From Acidobacteriota bacterium (GTDB lineage: Bacteria; Acidobacteriota; Terriglobia; Acidiferrales; UBA7541), in the NCBI GenBank assembly GCA_003224235.1, contig QHYU01000142.1:1-48495 (forward strand): 48,495 nucleotides of DNA. Reading direction: 5' to 3'. The stretch's first letter is position 1. Each line of letters starts with the position of its first letter. Below, piece by piece: positions 14,977 through 47,083 of this stretch. The notes below the pieces were generated by a model. It worked only from the letters and a program-made list of their open reading frames with translations. It was not told the DNA's origin and searched no databases. The translations under genes and the position numbers were made by a program.

Positions 14977-16071
14977 TCAGGAAATTTCGCGAAGGACGAT
15001 TTCGACGATTCGCTTTGCCGCTTGCCCGTCCCAAAGTGGTGGGACGCGTCCTCCATTTGTCCTACCCGCGAGGATGCTCCGTGCGGCAGCAACGATTCTT
15101 GCAGGATCCCGGCCTACGATTCGGTTGGTGCCCTCTCTGATGGTAATCGGTCGCTCCGTATTCTCTCGCAAGGTCAGGCAAGGTACGCCCAGCGCTGTCG
15201 TCTCCTCTTGGATGCCGCCAGAGTCAGTAAGTACAAGTCGGGCTTGGCTCAACAAGCAAAGAAAGTCCAAATAGCCGAGCGGTGGGACAAGCCGAAGTTG
15301 TGGGTGACTCTGATTCCCCATTTCCCTTAGTCTCTGCTGCGTGCGAGGATGGACGGGGAAAATTACTGGGAGCTGGTCGGCGAGTCGCGCGATGGCCTGC
15401 AGGAGTCCTCGCAGGGTTTCGACTGAATCTACGTTCGAGGGACGGTGGAGTGTCAGCACGGCAAAAGGGCCAAACCCGCCTCCGTTTTGCAGACCCAACT
15501 CGCGACCGATCTGTGATTGCTTCGCCAGCGGCAGAAAAAGCCGCAAGGCGTCAATCATGACGTTGCCAACGAGATAGATTCGTTCTGTCGGTAAGCCTTC
15601 GCGCTTCAAGTTTCGGACGGCGTCTTCTTCCGTCACGAACAGATAATGGGCCAGTGCGTCCGTCACCACGCGGTTGATTTCTTCGGGCATGGTTCGGTCG
15701 AAGCTGCGGAGTCCCGCCTCCACGTGGGCTACCTGAATCCCAAGTTTGACCGCAGCCAGCGATGCTGCGACGGTTGAATTCACATCGCCCACAACGAGGA
15801 CGAGAGCCGGCCGATACTCCAGAAAGACAGGCTCGATTCGCTTGAGGATCTCCCCTGTCTGCCATGCTTGGGAGCCGGAACCAACCCCGAGATTGAGGTT
15901 AGGTTTGGGGATACCCATCTGGCGAAAGAAGATCTCGGACAGTTTCTCGTCATAGTGCTGGCCGGTGTGAACGAGAATGGGCTCGATCTCAGGATGCCTG
16001 CGCATCTCACGTAGAAGCGGCGCGATCTTGACAAGATTGGGCCGGGCGCCGACAACGTTCACGATCTTCAC
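14977..16071 (-). CDS. wecB: UDP-N-acetylglucosamine 2-epimerase (non-hydrolysing)
   Basis: The 364-residue protein interconverts UDP-GlcNAc and UDP-ManNAc in the cytoplasm, supplying ManNAc-type sugars for surface polysaccharides. Start is GTG 16071 with AGGAG seven bases upstream. Diagnostic segments are VNVVGARPNLVKIAPL, LVHTGQHYDEKLSEIFF, VVGDVNSTVAASLAAVKLG, HVEAGLRSFDRTMPEEINR, FVTEEDA, LTLHRPSNVD, PVHPRTQQRL and LTDSGGIQEETTALGVPCL, all in the family order and over the usual length of about 360-380. It fits with the WecG/TagA-type transferase six kilobases upstream in the same orientation, which typically uses UDP-ManNAc. No ManNAc dehydrogenase is present in the window. Confidence 0.95.
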   Translation of the reverse strand: MKIVNVVGARPNLVKIAPLLREMRRHPEIEPILVHTGQHYDEKLSEIFFRQMGIPKPNLNLGVGSGSQAWQTGEILKRIEPVFLEYRPALVLVVGDVNSTVAASLAAVKLGIQVAHVEAGLRSFDRTMPEEINRVVTDALAHYLFVTEEDAVRNLKREGLPTERIYLVGNVMIDALRLFLPLAKQSQIGRELGLQNGGGFGPFAVLTLHRPSNVDSVETLRGLLQAIARLADQLPVIFPVHPRTQQRLREMGNQSHPQLRLVPPLGYLDFLCLLSQARLVLTDSGGIQEETTALGVPCLTLRENTERPITIREGTNRIVGRDPARIVAAARSILAGRTNGGRVPPLWDGQAAKRIVEIVLREIS

Positions 16072-39755: not shown

Positions 39756-40343
39756 CTACGCGAAGTCCCGCACCGACATGCTGCATGGCTGGATTGGTTC
39801 CACATCCGACAAGTCAACGTCGACGACTACCGAGCGCCTGATCAAATCCACCGAGAGAACAATTCGGCAGTTTCCTTTCCTCCGCAGCAAGATCCCTTCG
39901 AATCCCTGGAGCGGTCCGCCCTTAATTCGCACGCGACGCCCGACGGCTGGATACGGATGCGGCTGCATCCTAAGACGCTGATTCAGGGCGGTGCGAATGG
40001 CTTCCATTTCCTCTTCCGGGAGCGCAGTCGGCAGACCGTTGAAGCTGACCAGATAAACTAAGCTTGGAATCTCCAAGACACGCATGCGGTCCCGCAAAGC
40101 AATACGCACGAAAACATAGCCCGGGAAGAGCGGTAACTGCAGCCGCACACGCCGGTCTTTCCATGGGCGGAGCGCCTCGTGCAGAGGGAGAAAGAATTCG
40201 ACACACCGCCTGCCTAGCTGCTGAGCCACTCGTTTTTCGTGGTTCGCGCAGGTATAGGCTGCGTACCAGCGTGGTTCGGTGTAAACCGCGGGAAGGGCGT
40301 ACTCATGCTGCCGCTTCAAATCGTAGGGAACAGTGGTTGCCAT
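39756..40343 (-). CDS. NusG paralogue, UpxY/LoaP-type transcription antiterminator
   Basis: The 195-residue protein starts at ATG 40343, preceded by GAGGTG; a GTG at 40355 is less likely. The NGN domain (about 20-120) shows EPRWYAAYTCANHEKRVAQQ and LPLFPGYVFVRIALRDR, and a KOW domain follows (VGRRVRIKGGPLQGFEGILL). Specialised NusG proteins of this size sit inside capsule or exopolysaccharide operons and help RNA polymerase to read through the long transcript, usually recruited at a leader sequence. Here it lies downstream of the SLBB and Wzi genes and upstream of asnB, with a hairpin-containing leader right before it. Confidence 0.92.
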   Translation of the reverse strand: MATTVPYDLKRQHEYALPAVYTEPRWYAAYTCANHEKRVAQQLGRRCVEFFLPLHEALRPWKDRRVRLQLPLFPGYVFVRIALRDRMRVLEIPSLVYLVSFNGLPTALPEEEMEAIRTALNQRLRMQPHPYPAVGRRVRIKGGPLQGFEGILLRRKGNCRIVLSVDLIRRSVVVDVDLSDVEPIQPCSMSVRDFA

Positions 40344-40434
40344 CTCGCTAGGCACCTCAGGCCGCCCGGATACAGCTTCGCCCCGTCACCTACAGGGCGC
40401 GTGTGACATAACCCTTTGCGTTTCAATTGGTTAT

Positions 40435-42366: not shown

Positions 42367-45300
42367 TCACTTCCTGATCAAAGTAGCAGCAATCGCGGAG
42401 CCTTGAACCAGTTGTGCAACGGGCAAGAGGTTCTTCCAGAAAGAAGATTGCCCAATTGCCCTTTCAGGAACGATAATGGTGTCCCCGGGTTCGATTCGCG
42501 CGGAAAGTACCGCGCCGGTGCTCCACCAACGCTCTTCCTTGCCCGTGACCACCGATCCGTTAGCGCGGACGATGAAGATGGCCTTCTTTTCTGCCAGGTT
42601 GGTAATTCCTCCAGCCTGCTGCAAGTACCAAGCAGCATTCTTTCGGGGAACGTGGGTAATGGCATTGGAGTTGTAAACCTGGCCCGTAACCAAGACAAAG
42701 TCCGGTCGCTTGGGGATAAACAGAGTGTCGCCGGCGCGCACCTCGACGTCGTCCGGGGAATTTTCAAATGCGGCCAGATTGGCCCCGAGTCGAATCACCA
42801 AGCGACCCGTGACCCGCGCTTTTCGAAGAGCCTCGAGTACGCGCTCGCGTTGGTGAAGCGCAGCCTGCTGCAGTTCGGCTTGCCCTTTGGCATCTTCCGA
42901 GAGCGAAACCTTCACGCTACCCGCACTTTGTTCCACGCGCTGGATAAGCTCCTGCTTGCTTTTCTCTTGAAGCTCGCGAACTTCAATGCGCTCGAATACG
43001 GCAGCCTGAGGATAGGCCGTGGGCCGGAATGCGCCGGCGCGTTTGAGGACCGAACTCAACCGTTCGCCGGGCCGAATCCCATAAACGCCGGGGTGTTCGA
43101 CTTCACCCCGTACGGTGACGGACGCTCCGATATCCCGCCACCCGGGGAGCTGGCGAATCGTCAGGACGTCGCCGTCGCGCAAGGTAAGGTCATGGCTCGG
43201 GTCGCCTGCCAGCGCCGCTGGGAGATTGATTTCGAGGTGTTCTCCGGTCGTCTGTTTTTCGCCCTTGGCGAGGTATCGAGTAAGATCCGCGCTTTCCGTG
43301 TAAGCACTACGCAACAGGCCACCTGCAAGGCGGATCAAGTCTTCGACGCGCAGATTGCTCGTGCGCAAGTATCGGCCGGGCTTGGCGACCTCGCCCTTGA
43401 TGACTACACTGGGAGGATCCACCCGGATCGGATTGGGGTGTATCAGAAGGCGATCGCGGGGAAGAAGAAGGATGTTCTCTGTCGGATTGCCGGCCAGGGC
43501 CTGTTCCAGGTTGATGTTCAAGACCTTGAGTGAGCCATCGGGCATCGTGCGCATCAATTGCGCGGAGTCCAAAACCGCGTCGGGTGTCAGGCCTCCAGCG
43601 AACTGGATGGCGTCCCGCAAATGTGCCTCTCCCGGCGTGCGATATGTGCCTGGGCTTCGCACTTCCCCACCAACCGAGAAGCTGGGTGGGTCCTCGAAGT
43701 CGTACCGACTGAAGATGCGCACTGTGTCTAAGGGCAGGAGCTTCGGAGCCGAGGCTGGGTTCGCCAGAGCGGCGCCGAGATGGAAACTCTCCACATTCGG
43801 CCGATAGTCGGGAGGATTCAAACGGATTATTTCGGCGTACTTGGCTTCCGGTTCCGGGAGAAGATCTTTGTACGAGGATACAAGGTCGGTGACCCGCATG
43901 TCGGGCTGGAAAGCATAGCGCCCAGGCCGCAGCACATGTCCTTGCAGGTACACCGCATCTTGGTTGTGCGGTGCGATGGGAAAGATGTGAACTTCATCGC
44001 CGTCCTGGATGGCAATAGACTCTAATCTCTTTTCGTCCGCATTCCCGTCCTGCGCATCCGAAAGATCCACACTCAGCATGGTCCGCTTTTGGTGCGCCTC
44101 GATGCGCTGCACCTCGATGTGTCGCAGCGTGGCCGTGGGGAGGATTCCTCCGGCGAGTTCCAGCACCTCGGCCAGCGTTTTTTCTCCCCGCAGTTCATAG
44201 ATCGAGGGGCGCCGCAACATGCCTTCCACGGTGATTTGCGGGCCCAGCGGCGGAACCAGTAATGTGTCGCCGTTTTCCAGTCTTTTCAGGTCCGATCGAA
44301 CGCCGTGAAGCAAGAGGTCGTACACGTCCACTTCCTGGACGAGTTGCTTGCCGCGGAAATGGCGCAGCGTGCGGAGCGAACCCCTCTCGGTTGGACCGCT
44401 GGCGGCGAACAGAGCATTGATCGGCGTGGAAAGCGAGCTGATATCGTACGCACCGGGGTTTTCGACGTCGCCGACTACGTACACCCGGATTGTGCGCAGC
44501 CGGGAAAGAGAGACGTCGGCCGAAACGTCACGAAATTGCGTTCGCAGAATGCGTTGTACTGCTTGCTGGACTTCGCCTAGGGCTCGACCACTGACCAGGA
44601 TTGGGCCTACCTCGGGCAATGTCAGACGGCCTTCACGATCCACGGTTCGCACAAGTCGTTGAGAGACCCCGCCCCAGATGTCGATCGTCAAGCCATCTCC
44701 TGGTCCTACAACGTAGTCAGACCCAACAGGCAGATCCATGGGAACCAGTTGCGAGTCCAGAGCGTTGCGTCGGAAGACGTCCGTCCCAAAGCGCTCCATC
44801 ACAGGCTGGCGCGCTGACGCCTGCAAATACATGTCGTAAAGCGAAGGGATGTCCGCGTAGGGATTTGGCCTACGCACCATGGTTGCTGCTGGCCGATTTC
44901 GTTCTCCTTCTTTCCGCGAATTCAGAGAAGAGCCGGGTGAGAGATGGGTTCGCCCCTCAGGCAGCTTGTCGAAAGGCGTTTCCCCTTCCCTCCGGTCTAA
45001 AACGCGCGCCACTTCGCTTTCTTCGAGAGTAGCGGCGCGTTCACTCGGGGAGGAAAAGGGCTCACCTGGGCGCTGCATTAGAGGCACGCTCAGCCCAGCG
45101 CGGTCCTCCGAGCCAGTCTGTACAAGACGGGGGGAATTGCCACGACCCTGGCGCGGCGTCACGCGCTCTTGCAAGTCGGGCGAGTTCGGTTCTCCTGGCA
45201 GCTCCCGTCCGTAGAGCGATTGCTTACTGCTTTGCAGTTGTGGGCGCTCTTCCTCCGCACAGTGCCGCTCGCGCACCGGATCACAAAGGACTGTGGGTTC

Positions 45301-45825
45301 CAAACCTCTATCTGTCCGTCTACGATCAGTCGCGTCCTCCTCTTCGGCTTCGGCCTTGGCGAGTCGGTGGGCGCGCTCCTTGCGCACAAGATCTTGCTCT
45401 TTGGCAAGCTCGGAGTCCGGGTTTAGTTTGGGAATCAGATAGCCATAGCGCTGCAGGAGTCGAGTGCCCAAAGCGCGGAACGGCAGATCACGTGACAGTC
45501 GGTCGAAGATCGCTTGGTCGCTCAAGTCTGTGTCGTCAACAATCTGACCCTGATCCGTCGCTTCCTTTGCGACCCAACGCTTCAGCTCAACTAGCAGACC
45601 GGGCTCTTTCCGCAGCACTTCCTCGATCTGGCCCGGCGACGCTCCCACGCGATTCAAGTTTTCAGAGGCCAGGTCCGAAGGGGATGTTCTGACGCTTCTC
45701 TCCCGCTGCGACTGAGCAGCAGGGCAGACGAGGAGTGCGGCAAGCAACAAAGCGACAGCTTTCTTAAACTGCCCTCGGAGCGTGACCGCGATCTTGGCGA
45801 TGACTCTCAATCGAGAAAAACTCAC
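42367..45825 (-). CDS. Wza-like polysaccharide export protein with seven SLBB repeats
   Basis: The 1152-residue protein starts at GTG 45825 with a perfect AGGAGG five bases ahead. A signal peptide spans about 1-40 (AVALLLAALLVCPAAQS). Residues 40-365 are a charged, low-complexity part. A polysaccharide-export domain follows (SDYVVGPGDGLTIDIWGG, 369-386), then seven SLBB-type repeats at about 446, 530, 625, 715, 806, 902 and 1043, each carrying a V.GEV..PG.Y-like core (VTVRGEVEHPGVY, for example). The end has a hydrophobic helix (LLPVAQLVQGSAIAATLI). It should form the outer-membrane export channel. Wza itself has about 380 residues and two to three repeats, so this is an enlarged form. The GTGA start overlaps the preceding receiver gene. 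Confidence 0.92.
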   Translation of the reverse strand: MSFSRLRVIAKIAVTLRGQFKKAVALLLAALLVCPAAQSQRERSVRTSPSDLASENLNRVGASPGQIEEVLRKEPGLLVELKRWVAKEATDQGQIVDDTDLSDQAIFDRLSRDLPFRALGTRLLQRYGYLIPKLNPDSELAKEQDLVRKERAHRLAKAEAEEEDATDRRRTDRGLEPTVLCDPVRERHCAEEERPQLQSSKQSLYGRELPGEPNSPDLQERVTPRQGRGNSPRLVQTGSEDRAGLSVPLMQRPGEPFSSPSERAATLEESEVARVLDRREGETPFDKLPEGRTHLSPGSSLNSRKEGERNRPAATMVRRPNPYADIPSLYDMYLQASARQPVMERFGTDVFRRNALDSQLVPMDLPVGSDYVVGPGDGLTIDIWGGVSQRLVRTVDREGRLTLPEVGPILVSGRALGEVQQAVQRILRTQFRDVSADVSLSRLRTIRVYVVGDVENPGAYDISSLSTPINALFAASGPTERGSLRTLRHFRGKQLVQEVDVYDLLLHGVRSDLKRLENGDTLLVPPLGPQITVEGMLRRPSIYELRGEKTLAEVLELAGGILPTATLRHIEVQRIEAHQKRTMLSVDLSDAQDGNADEKRLESIAIQDGDEVHIFPIAPHNQDAVYLQGHVLRPGRYAFQPDMRVTDLVSSYKDLLPEPEAKYAEIIRLNPPDYRPNVESFHLGAALANPASAPKLLPLDTVRIFSRYDFEDPPSFSVGGEVRSPGTYRTPGEAHLRDAIQFAGGLTPDAVLDSAQLMRTMPDGSLKVLNINLEQALAGNPTENILLLPRDRLLIHPNPIRVDPPSVVIKGEVAKPGRYLRTSNLRVEDLIRLAGGLLRSAYTESADLTRYLAKGEKQTTGEHLEINLPAALAGDPSHDLTLRDGDVLTIRQLPGWRDIGASVTVRGEVEHPGVYGIRPGERLSSVLKRAGAFRPTAYPQAAVFERIEVRELQEKSKQELIQRVEQSAGSVKVSLSEDAKGQAELQQAALHQRERVLEALRKARVTGRLVIRLGANLAAFENSPDDVEVRAGDTLFIPKRPDFVLVTGQVYNSNAITHVPRKNAAWYLQQAGGITNLAEKKAIFIVRANGSVVTGKEERWWSTGAVLSARIEPGDTIIVPERAIGQSSFWKNLLPVAQLVQGSAIAATLIRK

Positions 45826-46202
45826 CGGTACCTCCTGGGGAATTGCGCTTTGCCGCGAAGCGCGTCGAGGATCCCTTCTTCGGAAGCCTCGACGCGGTTG
45901 GAATGAATGTCGAGAGAAGCCCAGTAGAAGACGCTGCTATTGCGTTCCGGCGCCAGCGCCAGAATCTTCATGTCCGGAAACTGGCAGAGCAGCGAATCGC
46001 AGAGGCGAGGTCGCTCGCCGGGCTCATCCAGAGCGATGATCAGAAAGTCCGGTTTTTTTTCCTCGACGACTCGGCGGATGTCGGCTTCGTCTTGGACTTC
46101 GCCGACGATCTCGATGTCAGGTTGCTCAGAAATTGTCGCGAGAACAAGCTCCCGCATGAGGCGGGGCTGATTTGCCACGACGACCCGAATGAGTTTCTCC
46201 AT
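45822..46202 (-). CDS. Stand-alone pseudo-receiver protein, coupled to the export gene
   Basis: The start is ATG 46202 with GGAG six bases ahead; 126 residues. The whole product is one CheY-like fold related to the receiver of the LuxR-type regulator upstream: LIRVVVANQPRLMRELVLATI, PDIEIVGEVQDEADIRRVV, KKPDFLIIALDEPGERP, PDMKILALAPE. The acidic pair is missing (VVANQ), the phospho-acceptor position is Ala (IIALDEP aligns with the usual LLDLDMP), and the conserved Lys is absent. It has no HTH. It cannot be phosphorylated in the usual way and may act as a partner or decoy of the LuxR-type protein. Its TGA overlaps the GTG of the SLBB gene by four bases. Confidence 0.72.
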   Translation of the reverse strand: MEKLIRVVVANQPRLMRELVLATISEQPDIEIVGEVQDEADIRRVVEEKKPDFLIIALDEPGERPRLCDSLLCQFPDMKILALAPERNSSVFYWASLDIHSNRVEASEEGILDALRGKAQFPRRYR

Positions 46203-46302
46203 GCCAGGCTCCACTCTCCGTTGCTGCAAGTATCGGATAATGAGGAAATAAAGGAAGGTTCATCGTGGAGTGGAGCAAAAAGGTCCCAAACATACCGACC
46301 TG

Positions 46303-46395
46303 GTACCCACCGTGGTGACTCGTCAGTACCAAAAAAGTACCGGTTCGCACCCACCAGTACCAACTGCGGCGAGCCGTCAGTACCCAAAAAGTACC
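46303..46395. promoter_or_regulatory. Array of six phased GTACC sites (two 54-bp units)
   Basis: GTACC occurs at 46303, 46326, 46337, 46357, 46380 and 46391 on the plus strand. Distances are 23, 11, 20, 23 and 11 bp, so one 54-bp pattern occurs twice, and the spacings are close to one or two helical turns. Units 46303-46341 and 46357-46395 agree at 32 of 39 positions, with an A-run between the last two sites in each. The array lies between the LuxR-type gene and the receiver/export operon, about 100-190 bp ahead of the receiver ATG. It looks like a multi-site operator or promoter control region. Confidence 0.65.
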
Positions 46396-46423
46396 AAGTT
46401 TTCAGAACAGACAAAGAGGCAGG

Positions 46424-47083
46424 CTAGACGAAGACGCCCTGCTCGCGAACCATCTCCACCACTGCCAGGCGGTCGTCCGCCCCGACTCTTTGGAGCATGC
46501 GGTGAATGTGGTTCTTCACCGTCTGCTCCGATAGATTCAGGCGCATGGCGATCTCCTTGTTCGTGAGTCCCTGGGCGATGAGCGGAACCAGTTGCTGTTG
46601 ACGGCGCGTCAAGCCGAGCTTGTACCGTATGCGGAGAGTCGGCAAAGCTGTCGAATCGCTGCAAACCAACTTGAACAAAGAGAGGCAAAGCCGCGGAGGG
46701 CACACTGCCTCATCCTGCGCTACCGCGCGGACCGCCGCGACCACATCTGTTGCGGAGGCATCTTTGAGGACGTAACCGAAAACCCCGGCCCGAACGGCAC
46801 TCAAGAATGCTTCTTCGTTTTCATCCATGCCGATCATGATCACCTTCAGACCCGGTACAACCTCGATGACCCTGCGAACGAACTGAAAGTCTGACGCCGC
46901 GCTGGTAACCGAATCGAGAAGAAGGATCTGGCAATTGGACTCGGCGATCTGTTGGATGGCTTGTGGAGAATAGGGCGCAGTGCCTGCAACCGAGATATCG
47001 CTCTTCGTTTTCAGGATGCGCGAGAGTGCTTCCCGCAGCAAGCGGTTGCCTGCCAAGAGGAAGACTGTGGTCTGAGGACTCAT
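46424..47083 (-). CDS. LuxR/NarL-type response regulator
   Basis: The 219-residue protein starts at ATG 47083 with GGAGGG eight bases ahead. A receiver domain (about 5-120) retains the phospho-acceptor Asp (CQILLLDSVTSA) and Lys (GYVLKDAS), but the N-terminal acidic pair is replaced (VFLLAGNRLLREAL). The C-terminal HTH (about 150-215) is typical: GLTRRQQQLVPLIAQGLTNK, then EIAMRLNLSEQTVKNHIHRM. It binds DNA as a regulator. No histidine kinase is nearby. It is the first gene of the minus-strand polysaccharide locus and ends 29 bp before the GTACC array, making that array its obvious candidate target. Confidence 0.92.
   Translation of the reverse strand: MSPQTTVFLLAGNRLLREALSRILKTKSDISVAGTAPYSPQAIQQIAESNCQILLLDSVTSAASDFQFVRRVIEVVPGLKVIMIGMDENEEAFLSAVRAGVFGYVLKDASATDVVAAVRAVAQDEAVCPPRLCLSLFKLVCSDSTALPTLRIRYKLGLTRRQQQLVPLIAQGLTNKEIAMRLNLSEQTVKNHIHRMLQRVGADDRLAVVEMVREQGVFV

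Follow-up and report, generated by a model that had tools for sequence, protein, structure and literature searches.

What function is served by a compact set of short, regularly spaced DNA sites lying between the gene for a LuxR-type regulator and the first gene of a polysaccharide export operon? We investigated this question for a contig of 48,495 nucleotides from an Acidobacteriota bacterium of the class Terriglobia (the window, i.e., the whole stretch of DNA analyzed). In the 221 bp that separate the end of the LuxR-type gene from the start of a receiver-like gene, GTACC occurs on the plus strand at 46303, 46326, 46337, 46357, 46380, and 46391 (gaps of 23, 11, 20, 23, and 11 bp), just as an earlier note on this DNA had reported in describing six such sites with a repeated 23/11 spacing. 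The neighboring genes are all on the minus strand, and the array is thus better read as GGTACT, in the minus-strand order GGTACTTTTTGGGTACTGACG...GGTACT...GGTACTTTTTTGGTACTGACG...GGTACC. The placement given in that note, between the LuxR-type gene and the receiver/SLBB operon, holds on this strand, with the end of the LuxR-type gene at 46424 followed by the array, the start of the receiver-like gene at 46202, and the SLBB gene. The features of the region are as follows.

46424..47083, minus strand: LuxR/NarL-type regulator with an atypical receiver and a GerE domain, the candidate reader of the array
46391..46395, minus strand: site 1, GGTACT, farthest from the promoter
46380..46384, minus strand: site 2, GGTACT, 11 bp from site 1
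46375..46395, minus strand: tandem direct repeat of 21 bp, GGTACTTTTTGGGTACTGACG, comprising two sites separated by a T-run and fitting the family consensus TTGGTACT-n3-TTGGTACT
46357..46361, minus strand: site 3, GGTACT, 23 bp from site 2
46337..46341, minus strand: site 4, GGTACT, 20 bp from site 3
46326..46330, minus strand: site 5, GGTACT, 11 bp from site 4
46321..46341, minus strand: second 21-bp copy, GGTACTTTTTTGGTACTGACG
46302..46307, no strand: site 6, the full palindrome GGTACC, 23 bp from site 5
45822..46202, minus strand: first operon gene, encoding a receiver-like protein of 126 aa whose phospho-acceptor is not conserved in its family
42367..45825, minus strand: SLBB/Poly_export (Wza-like) outer-membrane export protein

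The SLBB gene is followed by genes for Wzi and a NusG paralog and then by a run of Wzz, Wzy, Wzx, and glycosyltransferase genes, so that a Wzx/Wzy-type polysaccharide cluster of ~31 kb extends in one direction from the promoter region down to position 14977. The NusG paralog (39756-40355), the fourth gene of this cluster, occupies the place of an RfaH/LoaP-like anti-terminator. At the contig end lies a DDE transposase fragment (PF13701; 48027-48494).

Within the window, no other 5-mer is found six times in a span of 93 bp, and the 23/11 spacing is repeated nowhere else. In 40 Markov shuffles, nearly all such clusters consisted of homopolymer or dinucleotide runs. The same note held that two-thirds of the bases between the cores differ between the two 54-bp units and saw selection on the cores in this. 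That figure is wrong: an alignment of the units shows identity at 34 of 54 positions overall and at 17 of the 24 bases between the cores. The two units could thus be a young duplication, which would by itself explain their likeness, and evidence for conservation had to come from relatives, which restore the argument.

A search of 41 relatives recovered orthologs of the receiver-like gene in 30 (ordinary receivers make up many of the weaker matches), and a strict cutoff gave orthologs in 49 of the 89 genomes of the family. For the upstream analysis, we used 78 close receiver-like matches in public acidobacterial (Terriglobia) contigs, 76 of them with a usable upstream region, which together with the window gave 77 loci. 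In the 300 bp upstream of these genes, GTAC occurs 289 times versus 63 expected from the same loci or 70 under a dinucleotide model, i.e., an excess of about 4-fold (267 versus 65 in a nonredundant set of 70 loci). Ten of 11 control palindromic tetramers in the same regions lie at 0.64 to 1.08 of expectation, and the remaining one, AATT, shows a slight excess (1.42). The density of GTAC across the 77 loci has a single sharp peak, between -200 and the receiver start and concentrated 60 to 200 bp before it, with 0.025 per bp at -200 to -100, 0.0095 at -100 to 0, and a flat ~0.002 elsewhere within 3 kb. At least three GTAC cores are present at -220 to -40 in 56 of the 77 loci, and 46 have a pair of cores 10 to 12 bp apart. 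Hence, the search for GTACC arrays upstream of SLBB operons in related genomes that the earlier note had suggested found position, core, and helical phase kept in dozens of acidobacterial relatives. On this comparison, the array almost certainly serves the receiver/SLBB operon as a conserved cis-regulatory operator. Two side observations were made in these collections. The receiver-like genes of loci L045 and L046 are tandemly duplicated, the second copy being devoid of a promoter array of its own. In genus g6, another conserved noncoding element, AGTACTnnntGGTACTAGTTTCGAA...GTAC, is present (L149:2042-2082, L150:2056-2096, L151:1997-2037, and L152:2058-2097), with two copies in genome G018, beside unrelated genes.

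The distances between cores over the 77 loci peak at 11, 22 to 23, 33 to 35, 46, 55 to 56, and 67 bp, forming an 11-bp ladder. With the 11-bp peak itself left out of the periodicity test, the mean cosine at a period of 11.25 to 11.5 bp is 0.26 versus 0.015 ± 0.025 in the null, whose largest value is 0.108. The consensus of core pairs 11 bp apart is TTGGTACT-n3-TTGGTACT, represented in the window by GGTACTTTTTKGGTACT, with 41 of 52 such pairs oriented in the direction of the gene; as read from these sequences, the arrangement is head to tail rather than a single inverted repeat. Thus, the "cooperative operator" of the earlier note stands as regards the operator, by virtue of its conservation across relatives, and the strict 11-bp ladder makes cooperativity plausible.

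Downstream of the arrays, we identified a conserved block, TTGAACCTT (variants TTGATTCTT, TTGAATCTT, and TTGATCCTT), followed after about 24 bp by nATACT, with the whole placed roughly 50 to 75 nt before the start codon. The distance from the start of the TGAACC-type box to the start of ATACT is 29 to 31 bp in 35 of the 38 loci with a recognized -10 element. The GTAC cores are in register with the TGAACC box, with a periodicity peak at 11.0 bp. In the window, the corresponding elements are as follows.

46255..46262, minus strand: copy of the conserved box, TGAACCTT, spanning roughly -41 to -34 of the predicted promoter and helically in phase with the array
46229..46234, minus strand: predicted -10 element GATACT, an nATACT at a fixed distance from the box

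Transcription is predicted from these elements to start near 46222. The TGAACCTT box of the window is 45, 68, 79, 99, 122, and 133 bp from the six sites. With nATACT taken as the -10 element, the TGAACC box would fall at about -41 to -36, the array being upstream of it. Since GAACC is one base off GTACC, the TGAACC box may itself be a degenerate, promoter-proximal site.

The candidate for the protein that reads the array is the product of the adjacent LuxR-type gene. Its GerE domain (PF00196; E = 5e-16) and receiver domain (PF00072; E = 6e-11) place it in the NarL/LuxR (GerE) family, and its relatives in the PDB include NarL, DevR, and VraR, with a full-length match to DevR (3c3w; E = 1e-20) and a match to NarL (1a04; E = 8e-21). 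A LuxR-type gene is adjacent in 45 of the 77 loci, upstream and codirectional in 23 and divergent in 22, so that it is the array and not the gene order that is constant. In the other 32 loci, a simple motif search recognized no adjacent LuxR-type gene; the array is also present where such a gene is not adjacent, which indicates that it belongs to the promoter of the operon. Among the 89 genomes of the family, 48 have both the LuxR-type and receiver-like genes, 1 only the receiver-like gene, 9 only the LuxR-type gene, and 31 neither, as counted without correction for phylogeny. The genome under study has a single protein of this LuxR subfamily (the next best is 32% identical) and, likewise, a single array. 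Unlinked LuxR paralogs of genus g6 (L128, L137, L139, L141, L143, and L145) have a conserved GTAC cluster 340 to 490 bp upstream, facing a divergent gene for a PilZ-domain protein, and no GTAC array was found near the unlinked LuxR relatives L123, L129, L131, L136, L140, and L144, a point against the LuxR reading. The PilZ-domain gene opposite these clusters hints at a link to cyclic di-GMP.

The recognition helix of the protein, SEQTVKNH, retains Lys (27 of 30) and Asn (30 of 30) at the places of Lys182 and Asn183 of DosR, which contact bases (PMC4082495; PMC5861037). In members with an SE[YF]TV[RK]NH helix (Q replaced by Y or F and usually K by R), a GGTCA half-site is found in 7 of 10 loci, compared with 0 of the 67 others, and GGTCA-n5-GGTA there replaces GGTAC-n6-GGTAC. 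Such covariation is the trace expected of a binder with drifting specificity; kinship among the seven GGTCA loci confounds it with phylogeny, and L062 is an exception, combining an SEFTVRNH helix with ordinary GTAC sites.

These observations bear on the possibility that the array is a real conserved operator bound by some other regulator, such as one of the OmpR/PhoB type encoded elsewhere, with the LuxR-type gene merely a neighbor. Direct repeats at 11 bp upstream of -35 are typical of the OmpR/PhoB-type regulators, whose winged-helix domains would fit head-to-tail sites at this distance, and the array is kept where no adjacent LuxR-type gene was found. However, the linkage, the co-occurrence counts, the GTAC clusters of the g6 paralogs, and the covariation of helix and half-site point to the LuxR protein, and we regard the involvement of another regulator as unlikely. 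The assignment of the LuxR-type protein as the binder, made in the earlier note, is favored by the linkage, the co-occurrence, and the covariation, from which we infer that the adjacent LuxR protein quite probably reads the array.

The receivers at this locus are atypical. In the LuxR protein, the acidic pair is replaced by x-Asn (Asn in 30 of 30), and the phospho-acceptor Asp is lost in many members, although the protein of the window keeps an Asp (LLLDS); the functional phosphorylation pocket of acidic pair, Asp, and Lys is accordingly incomplete. Such a pocket is typical of the NarL/LuxR family without being required of it, and atypical receivers are known. The receiver-like protein gave no Pfam match; its predicted structure (mean pLDDT, 76.5) folds like a receiver, and the structures nearest to the model are the CheB, RcsB, DosR, and NarL receivers (TM of about 0.5 to 0.6). 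In both families the acidic pair is replaced and the phospho-acceptor position is variable, and their sequences suggest that neither protein is likely to be an ordinary phospho-receiver. Because the receiver is without the usual acidic pair, the input is likely to be a signal other than classical phosphorylation.

The position of the array relative to the predicted promoter bears on its effect. The cores of the window lie at about -80 to -170, short of the -10 element, in front of a promoter whose -10 (GATACT) is fair and whose -35 is poor. As the array is upstream of the predicted promoter and in register with it, the geometry favors activation over repression on a core promoter, and, read from this geometry, the array would rather likely activate the operon. 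The LuxR protein might instead bind as a repressor or for its own autoregulation. Such a role would fit the 22 loci in which the LuxR and receiver genes diverge from either side of the array, as well as the reach of the sixth site and the TGAACC box towards the promoter; against it, the sites stop short of the -10 element, are phased to the promoter box, and keep their tie to the start of the receiver gene whatever the arrangement, and the -35 is poor. Hence, we deem repression or autoregulation improbable and retain activation of the operon as the preferred reading.

That the array is no operator at all but a neutral tandem duplication, a dispersed repeat of the REP or transposon type, or a repeated coding segment of an overlapping 124-aa ORF (46040-46414, minus strand) is hardly credible: the 34/54 identity of the two units would fit duplication, the ORF does overlap the array, and the contig end carries an IS fragment, but the array is single copy, site position and phase are kept in relatives though the surrounding sequence is largely unalignable, and spacings of 11 and 9 to 13 bp are not multiples of three. 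The neutral reading is, on the sequence comparison, already refuted by this conservation. In the whole 4.57-Mb genome, the pattern GTACN{6,8}GTACN{6,34}GTAC matches the array alone, and the 21-mer GGTACTTTTTnGGTACTGACG has two copies, both in the array, even at 3 mismatches; a second array was thus not found by pattern search in this genome, which therefore offers no regulon of its own. In 20 related genomes, the pattern gave, besides the expected upstream arrays, mostly scattered matches resembling coding GTAC (Tyr) repeats. A dispersed, REP, or IS-derived repeat or a transposon end is ruled out by the single copy in 4.57 Mb, and a coding repeat by the spacing of the sites, which differs between relatives and does not follow multiples of three. 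We likewise ruled out a known RNA element or leader, since there is no Rfam match and the array is upstream of the predicted transcription start.

The account that we propose is that of an upstream activating region for the promoter from which the polysaccharide export and biosynthesis cluster would start (receiver-like, SLBB/Wza-like, Wzi, NusG-like, and onward). Copies of the LuxR/NarL protein would bind RGTACY half-sites (TTGGTACT, head to tail, 11 bp apart, with a T-rich spacer) on one face of the helix, and the row of protein would extend as far as the TGAACC box near -41, itself in register, and bring RNA polymerase to this promoter of fair -10 and poor -35. Cooperative, switch-like control would follow from the presence of several phased sites. 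The computation establishes the array, its conservation, position, and helical phase, the conserved promoter block, and the statistical tie to the LuxR gene; the LuxR protein as binder, its cooperative binding, and the activating effect are what we infer. Taken as a whole, an upstream activator array read by the LuxR protein and driving the ~31-kb cluster is probably correct, and the interpretation in the earlier note was largely right.

By analogy, the array may work like the multisite activator regions known for NarL/DosR or PhoB, and it departs from each of these systems in some respect. The half-site of DosR is GGGACT, and DosR sites are inverted repeats. The half-site GGTACT of the array resembles that of the DosR/DevR box of Mycobacterium tuberculosis, the proteins are similar over their full length, and the equivalents of Lys182 and Asn183 are kept; in contrast, the array consists of direct repeats of TTGGTACT at 11 bp, up to nine of them, rather than an inverted repeat of GGGACT half-sites, the third DosR contact, Lys179, is Gln here, and the receiver pocket is atypical. 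The DosR consensus half-site was not found in the papers searched. The NarL heptamers of Escherichia coli (TACYYMT) occur upstream of promoters as several short sites built on a TAC-Y core, recognized by a protein of the same family, and the array shares these traits. It differs from them in its GTAC core and strict 11-bp phase, and the sequences after TAC misfit YYMT (TACTTTT and TACTGAC break TACYYMT). With the PhoB/PhoP/OmpR boxes, it has in common 11-bp direct repeats upstream of -35, whereas the locus yielded no winged-helix regulator and the linked one has a GerE domain. Exopolysaccharide control of the VpsT/RcsB type likewise combines a LuxR-type regulator and an atypical receiver at polysaccharide genes, VpsT being a distant match (3kln; E = 4e-10), with a different site. 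Limited open-access literature searches for regulation of exopolysaccharide by LuxR-type proteins in Acidobacteria, for a GGTAC motif, or for such an operator returned nothing relevant. We thus describe a newly recognized, lineage-wide architecture of operator and promoter for polysaccharide export genes, which belongs to a known class, the phased operator arrays of response regulators.

More tentatively, and with a doubt that outweighs our confidence, these loci could represent a Terriglobia-wide switch for capsule or exopolysaccharide, in which a single NarL-family regulator, atypical and probably independent of phosphorylation, would polymerize head to tail on 11-bp-phased GTAC sites (at a single promoter in this genome) together with a cotranscribed pseudo-receiver, and in which helix and half-site would have coevolved from GGTAC to GGTCA. 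Acidobacteria of the class Terriglobia are abundant soil bacteria and difficult to culture, and limited open-access searches turned up no paper on how their polysaccharide genes are controlled. A conserved operator, together with a predicted regulator, a consensus site, a promoter, and a natural specificity variant, offers a directly testable entry point. The footprint is strong enough for regulon mapping across uncultured genomes, and it presents an apparent case of protein-DNA coevolution in a NarL-family regulator with a receiver that seems incapable of the usual phosphorylation chemistry.
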